Shown here piece after piece: positions 3,154-11,512 of a stretch of 12,234 bases of DNA. Under the pieces are notes generated by a model, which saw only the letters and a list, made by a program, of their open reading frames with translations, was not told where the DNA came from and searched no databases. This DNA comes from Gammaproteobacteria bacterium (GTDB lineage: Bacteria; Pseudomonadota; Gammaproteobacteria; Arenicellales; JAOTYS01). The stretch covers positions 1 to 12,234 of the forward strand of contig JAOTYS010000095.1 of the NCBI GenBank assembly GCA_029861795.1, in the 5' to 3' direction. The stretch's first letter is position 1; every line of letters starts with the position of its first letter. Both the position numbers and the translations under genes were made by a program.

Positions 3154-3178
3154 GCCCCCGACTTGCCGCGTCGGGGGC
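3154..3178. terminator. Strong hairpin between the hypothetical pair and tmRNA, likely bidirectional terminator
   Basis: A perfect 9-bp stem, GCCCCCGAC / GTCGGGGGC, with a 7-base loop. It lies 33 bases after the plus-strand stop at 3120 and 5 bases after the minus-strand tmRNA CCA end at 3184, so it can serve both converging units. Neither side has a clear U-run. An outer 7-bp inverted repeat, ACCAGTT (3141-3147) / AACTGGT (3181-3187), encloses it and includes the tmRNA ACCA end. Confidence 0.55.
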
Positions 3179-3200
3179 ATAACTGGTGGAGGCGGCGGGA

Positions 3201-3479
3201 CAGCAATTCCACTTCTTTCGAAATGGGCTGGACTATGCCTTCATCCCCGAAGCTTCCGAGGATGCGGAGCGTATTATCCGCGGTTGCGAATCCTAGTACC
3301 CGCTCATCCATCCTGGACCAGCAGGCCTATGAGTCTCTACAGGGCAGGCCTGAGGTTGGCCCTCTTCCTACCCCTCGGCGTTACCATGCCGTCCTCTGTT
3401 AACCTGCGAGAACGCCAGCAGGCTTCACCGATGTGAGCCCCGTGTTCACCCTGCTCTTGCGAGCAGGGGCGACCCTATG
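3201..3479 (-). ncRNA. Group I intron (IC3-like) in the tmRNA T-loop, 279 nt
   Basis: Self-splicing ribozyme candidate. P1: the exon CGAU and intron base C1 pair with GGUCG (intron 6-10) across an AUAG loop, with the U at the 5' splice site forming the required U-G pair. P2: CCCTGCTC-GCAA-GAGCAGGG (3449-3468), a perfect stem with a GNRA loop. P4: CGGU (3427-3430) with GCCG (3376-3379), flanked by GAAG and TAAC. P7: GACU in GTAGAGACT (3332-3340) with AGUC in AAGGCATAGTCC (3230-3241). P8: a 10-bp hairpin at 3242-3264. P9: CCATTTC-GAAA-GAAGTGG (3209-3226). The last base is G (3201). From memory, CGGYGAARCCU, ATGGYAACGCCGAG, TGTAGAGACT, GATGAAGGCATAGTCCAG and the GAAA-capped P9 closely match the Azoarcus tRNA-Ile intron, the model IC3 intron. 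There is no endonuclease gene. The T-loop site matches my recollection of rare reported tmRNA introns. Splicing activity is inferred. Confidence 0.9.
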
Positions 3480-3693
3480 ATCGAACCCGCGTCCGAGAAT
3501 CCTCCACGCACCGGTTCTACATGCTTAGTCTGTCTTTAGTTTTGACCGACCGTGTCTCGACAGACGGAGGCACTAGTCGGCGAGCCCGCTTAAGGTTTAG
3601 CGAATTGGTAACGGACGCACTTCTTCGCGATCCTGTGTGTGTCGACCCCTCGATTCCTACCCCACAGGCAAGCCAGGTGAGAGGCTAGCGGGA

Positions 3694-3726
3694 TTAAGCC
3701 GCTAGAGCGTAGTTGTCGTCGTTGGC
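3694..3726 (-). CDS. ssrA: tmRNA proteolysis-tag reading frame
   Basis: The resume codon is GCC, and the frame reads ANDDNYALAA followed by TAA. With the alanine carried by tmRNA itself, the full tag would be AANDDNYALAA, differing from the E. coli tag by D for E at one position. The C-terminal LAA is the ClpXP recognition end. This is an internal message within tmRNA and has no start codon of its own. Confidence 0.93.
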   Translation of the reverse strand, partial: ANDDNYALAA

Positions 3727-3841
3727 AACTAATAGTTTGCAGTTGGATTTACGAGGAACTCTGCACCTCGGCATGCTCCGATGGTTTCGCGATCCACGTC
3801 GAAACCATGTCGCCCCCTTTTACTACATCTCCAATGAATAC

Positions 3842-3949: not shown

Positions 3950-4897
3950 TTAGGTGACATTGAGTTCTTGCCTAAACCAACTTGCAGTTTGGTCAAGGCC
4001 CGCTGAGAGCGGCGTAGGGGTGTCGATGCCGAGCTCTTGCTGGAGCTTCCCTGAATCGATGGACGAGCGTTTCTGTTCTCCGGGTTTGGCGGAGCCGTGC
4101 CTCGCCTTACGATTACTATCGACTGCTTTAGTCAGTGCCGAATAAAGTTCGACAACCGAGGTCTCAATACCGGTTCCAACGTTATAGATGCGAAATCCGG
4201 ACTGTCCAAGCGCTGCCATATTGGCCTTAACGACATCTTTTACGTGGACGTAGTCTCGAGTCTGTTTACCATCCCCATTTATCGTGCATTGTTTGCCGGA
4301 CAATAAGCAACTCAGGAAAATGGCGACGACCCCAGCTTCACCATGGGGGTTCTGTCTTTCACCATACACATTGGCGTAACGCAGGCAGGTCGCGTCGAGA
4401 CCATACTCACGATGGAAGTAGTAAAGGTATCGCTCAGAGGTGAGTTTGCTTACACCGTAGGGTGACAAGGGGCGAGTGGGGTGGTCCTCAGCGGCCGGAA
4501 AATACTCCTGGTCACCATAGATTGCCCCACCAGTAGACGCGAAGATTACTTGCTTCACATTGCAATCAACCGCAGCACTGAGGAGGTTTAGCGTTCCGAG
4601 AATGTTTACCTCGGCGTCAAATATCGGATCTTCAGTAGATCGCCGTACATCCATCTGGGCAGCCAAATGGTAGATAACGGTTGGCGCTTTCTCCTTGATG
4701 AGTTGTGACGCATCTTTCGAACGAATATCTATTTCATAGAACTCTGAACCATCGGGGATATTTTGTCGCCGCCCCGAGCTCAGATCGTCCATGATGACAG
4801 TGTGGTACCCCGCTGCAAGGGCAGCGTCTGCAAGGTGGGAACCGATAAATCCTGCACCGCCGGTAATCAACACAATTCGCTCGTGAGTATTTTCCAT
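3950..4897 (-). CDS. NAD-dependent sugar-nucleotide epimerase/dehydratase (GalE-like extended SDR)
   Basis: Cytoplasmic extended short-chain dehydrogenase, 315 residues, probably acting on a UDP- or dTDP-sugar for surface polysaccharide synthesis. The N-terminal Rossmann loop is TGGAGFIGSH at about residues 12-21, followed by MDDLSSG, where an acidic residue ends strand 2 and favours NAD. Catalytic elements are FASTGGAIYG and the YxxxK motif in SPYGVSK. The substrate-side motifs LRYANVYGERQNPHGEAGVVAIF and NGDGKQTRDYVHVKDV match UDP-glucose 4-epimerase relatives. The length is near the shorter GalE-like group (about 310). The ATG at 4897 (MENTHERIV) is chosen over an upstream TTG at 4915 because it has GAGACG six bases upstream and fits the family N-terminus. 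The gene sits between smpB and ssrA with no partner sugar genes in view. The exact substrate is unknown. Confidence 0.85.
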   Translation of the reverse strand: MENTHERIVLITGGAGFIGSHLADAALAAGYHTVIMDDLSSGRRQNIPDGSEFYEIDIRSKDASQLIKEKAPTVIYHLAAQMDVRRSTEDPIFDAEVNILGTLNLLSAAVDCNVKQVIFASTGGAIYGDQEYFPAAEDHPTRPLSPYGVSKLTSERYLYYFHREYGLDATCLRYANVYGERQNPHGEAGVVAIFLSCLLSGKQCTINGDGKQTRDYVHVKDVVKANMAALGQSGFRIYNVGTGIETSVVELYSALTKAVDSNRKARHGSAKPGEQKRSSIDSGKLQQELGIDTPTPLSAGLDQTASWFRQELNVT

Positions 4898-5124
4898 GTT
4901 TCGTCTCGTGATCAATCAAGCAACCCATATCCACAGAAATAAATTTGTTTAACGTATCGCATCATTTCATGATAGCTCAAATATAAGATCATGTCGTTGT
5001 GGCGGTGGATGAGGTTTTCATGCCCGTATACCGTAATGGACTTCTTTACAAGACCATCTGTCCTGATGGATAGCGCATCTACTGATTTTCTGTTTGCACC
5101 TCGAAAAGACTGGATGTGCAAGAC

Positions 5125-5595
5125 TCAGCGGTTTAATTTCATAAGTCGTTGCTGTTCACGGTCCCATTCACGCTGTTTTAGTGCCGCCCGTTTGTCATGC
5201 TGCTTCTTGCCTTTGGCCAAACCAATTCCTAGCTTGACTCGACCAGACTTCCAGTACAGCGACAGCGGGACTAGTGTATAACCACGGCGCTCCACCGCGC
5301 CGACCAGATGGTTGATTTCTTTTCTGTGCAGCAACAATCTACGGGTGCGGGTTGGGTCTGGGTTGACATGTGTGGAGGCAGACGCCAACGGCGAGATATG
5401 TGCACCGAATAAAAATAGTTCCCCACTGCGGGCGATCACATAGGCCTCTTTCAACTGTGCCCGCCCTGATCGAATGCTCTTCACCTCCCAGCCTTGTAGT
5501 TCTACCCCCGCCTCGAATTTTTCCTCGATGAAATAGTCGTGTCTCGCCCTCTTGTTCAGCACGATAGTATTTGGGCGATTCTTTGCTTTGTTCAT
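5125..5595 (-). CDS. smpB: SsrA-binding protein SmpB
   Basis: Small RNA-binding protein of 156 residues that binds the tRNA-like domain of tmRNA, delivers it to stalled ribosomes and is required for tagging. Family marks seen: [27 protein letters not shown] at the N-terminus, [11 protein letters not shown], the [19 protein letters not shown] stretch, and a basic C-terminal tail ([22 protein letters not shown]) that inserts into the empty mRNA channel. The length is close to that of E. coli SmpB (160). The ATG at 5595 (MNKAKNR) has no good Shine-Dalgarno. Its RNA partner is encoded about 1.3 kb downstream on the same strand, with the epimerase between. ratA is divergent on the other side. Confidence 0.97.
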
Positions 5596-10462: not shown

Positions 10463-11512
10463 ATGACTCTTAACGCGCGCGCGGAGATATTACTGAAGAC
10501 ACTGATAAGGCGTTACATCAGTGAGGGTCAACCGGTGGGCTCCCGCACGTTGGCAAAACAGGCCGGATTGGAGCTCAGTCCGGCCACTATACGCAATGTG
10601 ATGGCTGATCTTGAAGAAATGGGGTTGGTGAGCTCGCCGCACACGTCGGCCGGTCGAGTCCCTACCGAGCTAGGCTATCGGGTGTTTGTAGACACCATGC
10701 TGAAAGTGAAACCGCTCACCGAAGAAGCCTTGGGGGAGATGGAAGAGAAGCTAACGTCTAAACACGATCCGCAGCAACTACTCACTGTGGCGTCAGATCT
10801 ACTGTCACAAGTGACAAGGTTCGCTGGTGTGGTTCTTGTGCCGCGCACCGGTCAAGTTAAATTCAAGCAGATAGAATTCCTCTCGTTATCACCCAATCGG
10901 GTTCTCGCGATACTGGTAACTGAAGATGGACGTGTGCAGAATCGGGTAATTGCTGGAGATCGAGGTTATGCCCAGAGTGAACTGGTACAGGCCTCGAATT
11001 ACTTCAATCGAACCTACTCAGGAGATTCTTTGTCGGAGGTGCGTCGCCGGCTGTTGGGCGAGATAAAGCGGGAAAGTGACGAGATGCACAGCATCGTGAA
11101 GACGGCGGTGGAAATGGCGCAAGAATTATTTGAAACAGATGACTCGGCTGATGAAGATTTGCTTGTAAGTGGTGAAGCCAATTTGTTGGATTTCCCGGAA
11201 CTGTGTCAGATTGAAAAGCTGCGCCAGCTCTTTGACACCTTTCAAACTAAGCAGGATCTTCTCGATTTGCTGGATAAAAGCCTGAAGGCCAGTGGCATTC
11301 AGCTCTTTATTGGCCACGAGTCTGGCTATGAAGCACTGACAGAGTGTAGCATCGTCACCTCTTCCTATGAGGTGGATGACCAGCTTATCGGCACCTTGGG
11401 CGTTATCGGACCCACACGAATGTCTTATGAAGACGTGATCCCGGTAGTCGATGTGACCGCCCGCCTGCTTGGTAGCGCACTCAGCGCTAAGTCAGGAGAC
11501 CGACTACAATAA
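10463..11512 (+). CDS. hrcA: Heat-inducible transcription repressor HrcA
   Basis: Repressor of class I heat-shock genes that binds CIRCE and is kept active by GroEL; 349 residues, usual length. The N-terminal winged helix includes RAEILLKTLIRRYISEGQPVGSRTLAKQ, then LSPATIRNVMADLEEMGLVSSPHTSAGRVPTELGYR, the classic HrcA DNA-binding block (about residues 5-75). The C-terminal part has FKQIEFLSLSPNRVLAILVTEDGRVQNR and the GAF-like end (LFIGHESGYEALTECSIVTSSYEVDDQLIGTLGVIGPTRMSYEDVIPVVD). A CIRCE site lies in its own leader. It precedes grpE, an arrangement found in bacteria with hrcA-grpE-dnaK-dnaJ clusters; here grpE also has its own promoter. Confidence 0.97.
   Translation: MTLNARAEILLKTLIRRYISEGQPVGSRTLAKQAGLELSPATIRNVMADLEEMGLVSSPHTSAGRVPTELGYRVFVDTMLKVKPLTEEALGEMEEKLTSKHDPQQLLTVASDLLSQVTRFAGVVLVPRTGQVKFKQIEFLSLSPNRVLAILVTEDGRVQNRVIAGDRGYAQSELVQASNYFNRTYSGDSLSEVRRRLLGEIKRESDEMHSIVKTAVEMAQELFETDDSADEDLLVSGEANLLDFPELCQIEKLRQLFDTFQTKQDLLDLLDKSLKASGIQLFIGHESGYEALTECSIVTSSYEVDDQLIGTLGVIGPTRMSYEDVIPVVDVTARLLGSALSAKSGDRLQ

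Follow-up and report, generated by a model that had tools for sequence, protein, structure and literature searches.

A probable self-splicing, subgroup IA-like group I intron in the T-loop of a gammaproteobacterial tmRNA gene, with homologous introns in viral tmRNA genes

The tmRNA (ssrA) gene in a 12,234-nt gammaproteobacterial contig (JAOTYS010000095.1, assembly GCA_029861795.1; the whole stretch is called the window here) is split by a 279-nt insert between T-loop nucleotides 6 and 7, the main site of tmRNA introns. Its sequence leaves us highly confident that the insert is a subgroup IA-like group I intron, most likely self-splicing. The intron is a sound new example of a published class whose favoured site was already known. 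What is newest was found beyond the window, where viral tmRNA genes carry homologous introns and two of these genes are permuted.

The complete tmRNA gene occupies positions 3817-3184 of the minus strand, 634 nt in all and 355 nt without the insert. The Rfam tmRNA model (RF00023), recommended as a check in the initial annotation, matched the minus strand with 174.1 bits over 3809-3478 and stopped at the T-loop. Read on this strand, the T-loop sequence UUCGAU is followed by the 279 nt and then by UCCCGCCGCCUCCACCA. Removal of the insert restores the T stem, the acceptor stem and CCA, as had been proposed; the acceptor stem has 7 bp, with all seven pairs formed between the 5' end GGGGGCG (3817-3811) and CGCCTCC of the 3' exon (CGCCUCC in RNA). 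The tag frame translates to ANDDNYALAA followed by a stop, and the tag is identical in three relatives (L005, L033 and L034). A near relative (L002) carries a continuous tmRNA gene at 10517-10871 that is likewise 355 nt long. ARAGORN did not report the tmRNA gene in the window. Directly past the CCA there is a strong hairpin (GCCCCCGAC/GTCGGGGGC, 3154-3178) in which a clear T run is absent.

The insert (3479-3201, minus strand) is preceded by U and has G as its last base. The group I core, P3-P7-P8 and P4-P6, was found within it. All elements listed in the initial annotation were present, namely P1 with a splice-site U-G pair, P2 with a GNRA cap (GCAA), P4, P7, P8, P9 with a GAAA cap and the terminal G; P3, P5, P6, P7.1, P7.2 and P9.0 were absent from that list and are added here (Table 1). 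By analogy, we take P7 to be the putative guanosine-binding site. By eye, P10 would comprise only about two pairs, a point against a splicing group I intron.

Table 1. Features of the split tmRNA gene, its intron and the related viral loci. Positions refer to the window unless a locus is named.
Feature	Position	Strand	Basis
tmRNA (ssrA) 5' exon, acceptor stem to T-loop nucleotide 6 (UUCGAU)	3480..3817	-	RF00023; 7/7 acceptor pairs
Tag frame ANDDNYALAA plus stop	3694..3726	-	sequence, translation, tag identity in L005, L033 and L034
tmRNA 3' exon: T-loop nucleotide 7, T stem, acceptor stem, CCA	3184..3200	-	sequence
Group I intron, 279 nt, longest stop-free stretch 45 codons	3201..3479	-	fold, covariation, covariance model
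P1: exon CGAU and intron C with GGUCG; U-G pair 3480/3473	3470..3483	-	4/5 pairs invariant in 17 sequences
P2, 8 bp, GCAA loop	3449..3468	-	two-sided changes in 7/8 pairs
P3 5' strand (3' strand 3265-3270)	3437..3442	-	two-sided changes in 3/6 pairs
P4 5' strand (3' strand 3376-3380)	3426..3430	-	paired cells 98.8%; two-sided changes 0
P5 (3422-3421 with 3385-3384) and variable outer hairpin, enlarged in the window	3384..3422	-	two-sided changes in 1/2 pairs; insertion in alignment
P6 (3374-3370 with 3345-3341)	3341..3374	-	two-sided changes in 2/5 pairs
P7 5' strand/R element (3' strand/S element 3230-3234)	3332..3337	-	invariant in 17 sequences
P7.1 hairpin	3299..3325	-	two-sided changes in 5/6 pairs; paired cells 84.3%
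P7.2 hairpin	3276..3291	-	two-sided changes in 5/6 pairs; paired cells 99.0%
P8	3242..3264	-	paired cells 69.6%; weakest helix
P9.0 (3229-3227 with 3204-3202)	within 3202..3229	-	two-sided changes in 3/3 pairs
P9 (3226-3220 with 3215-3209), GAAA loop	within 3202..3229	-	two-sided changes in 5/7 pairs
Intron terminal guanosine	3201..3201	-	G in 17/17 aligned sequences
smpB, gene of the tmRNA partner protein	5125..5595	-	PF01668, E 1.5e-60
Viral standard tmRNA with intron	L184:803-1507	-	model R1
Viral standard tmRNA with intron	L238:4234-4796	+	model R1
Viral standard tmRNA with intron	L239:20-656	-	model R1
Viral standard tmRNA with intron	L241:988-1596	-	model R1
Viral permuted tmRNA with intron	L235:1897-2363	-	212 kb contig
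Viral permuted tmRNA with intron	L237:3857-4323	-	155 kb contig
Viral permuted tmRNA with intron	L236:12381-12814	-	165 kb contig; own reading

Folding of positions 3180-3500 gave a z score of -4.27, and none of 100 shuffled sequences folded equally low. The insert was aligned with 16 homologous inserts, 15 from the class sample described below and one from the viral contig L184. All 17 sequences had the splice-site U with its U-G pair and ended in G, and in the core all carried UAGAGACUYAUAG and AUAGUCC. Over this alignment 93.8% of the cells in the drawn structure were paired, and two-sided changes were seen in 33 of 64 pairs. The covariation score, window included, was 0.526 against 0.193 for shuffled alignments (0 of 500 as high). 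Sliding the partners by 1-3 columns reduced pairing to 32.5-45.6%, a comparison biased in favour of the drawn structure, which was drawn on the window and the consensus. P7 and four of the five P1 pairs were invariant and contributed nothing to covariation; P7 is therefore without covariation support. Pairing was weak in P8, perhaps as a result of the alignment. The window retained 104 of the 105 columns invariant across the 16 relatives, the lone departure being U at 3383, where all 16 have C. A covariance model built from the 16 relatives, with the window left out, scored 238.1 bits at 3184-3494, a span that includes 32 exon bases, so part of this score belongs to the exons. The fold, the covariation and this score bear out a group I intron in the T-loop, with the boundaries first proposed.

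The Rfam group I model behaved differently. Intron_gpI (RF00028) gave no match on the window at its gathering threshold and only a partial one (10.9 bits, E 2.5) at a loose threshold. The initial annotation had named the lack of such a hit as grounds for giving up the intron, and technically the hit was lacking (10.9 against a gathering score of 50), although that score is a practical test and not a defining trait of group I introns. Because of this failure, relatives of the insert were sought. Ten of the 16 sister loci were run through Rfam: six matched RF00028 at a loose threshold with 22.9-39.2 bits (best E 8.3e-7), the other four gave nothing at E <=1, and none reached 50 bits. Since six of these ten loci match only below the threshold, the miss on the window is read as insensitivity of the model. 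With ARAGORN silent and the Rfam group I model failing, the window shows how split tmRNA genes are missed.

The genome samples are described as drawn evenly from a larger group. The class sample comprised 369 genomes from the class to which G002 belongs (G002 carries locus L002). A split T-arm pattern matched 35 of them; among 30 loci examined from these matches, 15 had the insert and 15 a continuous tmRNA gene. Covariance model R1 matched 19 of the 369 genomes strongly (221.8-288.1 bits) and six further ones weakly (19.3-32.3 bits). The insertion site, the preceding U and the terminal G were identical in the 15 loci and in four more. When model R1 was run on 194 relatives of G002, the seven strong matches all fell within the class sample, and 26 further genomes had weak matches (18.5-43.3 bits). 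Among 398 genomes of the phylum sample there was no strong match, and two had weak ones (44-46 bits); since the drawing is known only as even, 19/369 and 0/398 are not taken as natural frequencies. The two weakly matching phylum loci, L242 (46.4 bits) and L243 (44.4 bits), had no tRNA calls.

Ten weak-match loci were inspected. Six lay between tRNA-Pro and tRNA-His genes, one (L218) held a continuous tmRNA gene, and the other three were L219, L220 and L228. Loci L221 and L224-L227 had their weak matches in the tRNA-Pro(TGG)/tRNA-His gap. In the same gap, a tRNA-Arg-like gene at L231:1320-1885 (minus strand) is, judged by eye, interrupted by a group I intron. At L228:1579-1769 (minus strand) RF00028 matched above its cut-off (52.2 bits), with no tRNA calls nearby.

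Closer to the window, a DNA search of 100 near relatives matched the exon in 61, and every alignment ended at query position 51 or 52, which is the T-loop. Of 30 loci taken from these 61 matches, 29 had continuous tmRNA genes (L138 is the remaining one). Among 80 SmpB loci, seven had a continuous tmRNA gene, none had an insert, and 73 were without a T-arm by the test used. In L001 and L061 the tmRNA runs past the contig end. The insert is thus patchy in distribution and was unseen in the nearest genomes compared.

Intron and exon distances were correlated at r 0.26 (1 of 2000 permutations as high; 19 of 21 rows, full exons only), a value so weak that distances do not separate inheritance from transfer. 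In an intron tree of 26 rows with the exons removed, the window grouped with nine other bacterial introns (100/100), and ten bacterial introns fell beside six viral ones, apart from the window's group. The tree suggests two well-separated bacterial intron lineages, with the window in one; because of the midpoint root, the 13 of 23 inner branches drawn open and the long branch of L235, the claim is limited to these two lineages, and no direction of transfer is claimed.

In the initial annotation, tmRNA introns were taken to be rare. A 2025 survey (PMC11915505), cited here from parts of its text, counts 883 unique intron-form tmRNA genes from 21 phyla, all with the intron in the T-loop and mostly at position 7; this, together with the 19 strongly matching genomes in the class sample, speaks against rarity, although the phylum sample had 0/398. 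As we read the survey's Figure 2 legend, insertion after loop nucleotide 6 corresponds to position 7. The gene in the window has an interrupted T-loop at one of the four listed subsites, and its junction restores the T arm. It shares with the published position-7 introns the gene, the internucleotide position, the U before and the G at the end. Founding introns at this position average 293 bp, compared with 279 in the window, and their P7.1 region is named. Endonuclease genes occur in 36 of the 883 introns, so that most, like that of the window, have none. No structural difference from these introns was found in the parts of the survey used. The words Gammaproteobacteria and Pseudomonadota are absent from its main text; the lineage may be in its supplement. 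A literature search for tmRNA introns in Gammaproteobacteria found nothing, which is weak evidence given limited journal coverage. The 287-nt Clostridium botulinum tmRNA intron, from a different phylum, is stated to be self-splicing in the section of PMC2729099 consulted, and is likened to that of the window by description only. To this class the window contributes a further member with good support and clear boundaries.

The window also corrects the subgroup assignment. P7.1 and P7.2 are the mark of subgroup IA, both together indicating IA2, and are absent between P7 and P3 in subgroup IC3. The insert carries both hairpins between the P7 5' strand and the P3 3' strand and is most likely IA-like, of the IA2 type, as judged from these hairpins without an IA2 reference sequence. 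It had been called IC3-like, a label we take to belong to the group I introns of tRNA genes. An IC3 intron akin to those of tRNA anticodon loops would share the general core with the window intron, and some of the weak matches of model R1 (18.5-43.3 bits) adjoin tRNA genes. We nevertheless consider this reading improbable. The split gene and the site in L231 (relative G001) differ from those of the window, and its intron, which has the group I core in common, is without P7.1 and P7.2 by eye. In the class sample a wide gap separates the scores of split tmRNA genes (221.8-288.1 bits) from all others (32.3 bits at most). Because P7.1 and P7.2 covary in the insert and are missing from the L231 intron, the label IC3-like is unsupported. 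In the portion of PMC3984707 used, P7.1/P7.2-type elements are listed among the features telling classes apart.

An IA-like intron would be expected to leave the precursor, whose T arm it splits, by the route common to group I introns. The intron would fold, with the U-G pair in P1 holding the 5' splice site. In the two-step reaction that is general for group I introns, guanosine bound in P7 would bring about the cut after U 3480; attack by the released 5' exon after G 3201 would follow. The ligated RNA could fold its T arm and be processed to a normal 355-nt tmRNA with the tag ANDDNYALAA, so that trans-translation would probably be unaffected. Unspliced RNA, with its T arm split, should be barred from trans-translation. 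An intron that is present yet splices poorly, leaving tmRNA impaired and the cell served by another rescue route or gene copy, would agree with the low RF00028 score relative to the six matching sister loci, with the enlarged P5 hairpin and with the change at 3383. We consider this possibility unlikely, as nearly all relative-invariant columns are kept, no damage is seen in the exons, the tag or smpB, and the covariance model from the 16 relatives alone still recognizes the window clearly. Least probable is an integration scar or other non-ribozyme element. Although tmRNA genes are often integration sites of islands (PMC11915505, in the part used), the insert has the group I core fold, 19 of 369 class genomes have inserts with identical U and G ends, and no stop-free stretch exceeds 45 codons; this candidate was rejected on covariation. 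With stop-free stretches this short, the intron does not encode a homing endonuclease, and for that reason any movement at present would depend on help in trans, on reverse splicing or on being passed down together with the flanking DNA.

Viral sequences were searched for the same element. The split T-arm pattern picked out 52 stretches in IMG/VR, of which one had an insert (L184), 32 were continuous and 19 were neither by the test used. In all, the IMG/VR searches yielded eight contigs in which model R1 recognized the intron (105-229 bits). Four (L184, L238, L239 and L241) carry standard tmRNA genes with a T-loop intron and seven of seven acceptor pairs, and the locus in L240 is cut, with only its downstream part visible. 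In L235, L237 and L236 the gene is permuted: the 3' piece with the split T-loop leads, and the 5' piece follows 3 or 30 nt later. Their acceptor stems form 7/7 pairs and their T stems 5/5, and their tags are VNNIYPFSRKRALVAA and ASNDSTYDQRLAA. L235 and L237 are identical over the 1471 bases compared and represent one sequence. The Rfam model of permuted tmRNA (RF04321) matched both with 47.9 bits, barely above its cut-off of 47; L236 scored below it, and its permutation is therefore our own reading. Table 3 of PMC11915505, within the parts used, distinguishes a standard, a permuted and an intron form besides two no-CDS forms; a permuted form with an intron is not listed. Nor was a permuted tmRNA gene with an intron announced in the titles and abstract openings of the literature matches listed.

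Phage identity was backed by PHROG matches to RIIB-like (L235), tRNA nucleotidyltransferase (L238) and homing endonuclease (L239) proteins. Matches were less telling for L184, L236, L240 and L241, whose phage identity comes mainly from IMG/VR. BLAST of the intron against phages returned three records at chance level (E 0.3-0.9), BLAST of the intron with short exons against plasmids matched nothing, and three viral tmRNA regions likewise had no BLAST match among named phages. Genes resembling HNH/endonuclease VII lie downstream of the viral tmRNA in L184:110-685 and L240:883-1440 (both minus strand; 43% identity) and are possible helpers of intron spread. A second group I-like match in L235 (2669-2859, minus strand, 37.8 bits) lies upstream of the RF04321 match at a distance of about 300 nt; by eye, its host reads as a tRNA gene split in the anticodon loop.

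Taken together, this family would have three kinds of host: standard tmRNA genes in two gammaproteobacterial lineages and, in phages, both standard and permuted tmRNA genes. We put forward tentatively, and with some doubt, that a single intron family specific to the T-loop passes between bacteria and phages by way of tmRNA genes carried by phages, whatever the architecture of the gene. Phage tmRNA genes, some adjoining an HNH endonuclease gene, might be the vehicle that seeds bacterial ssrA. In permuted phage genes, excision of the intron from the leading 3' piece would have to precede formation of the two-piece tmRNA. The bacterial and viral inserts offer a testable route for the repeated return of one RNA element to one loop, and the moderate interest of the case rests mostly on the viral relatives.

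The neighbours of the window gene fit a gammaproteobacterial chromosome. Pfam named smpB, a polyketide-cyclase-like gene (presumably RatA-like), BamE, a GNAT gene and HrcA. Proteins that we take to be RnfH, RecN and NAD kinase are matched, with their order conserved, in L001 and L002, from two MAGs called Gammaproteobacteria. SmpB of the near relative L002, where the tmRNA gene is continuous, stands at 75%. An NAD-dependent epimerase gene (3950-4915, minus strand) sits between smpB and ssrA in the window, unlike in L002 and L005, where ssrA follows smpB after about 65 bases.
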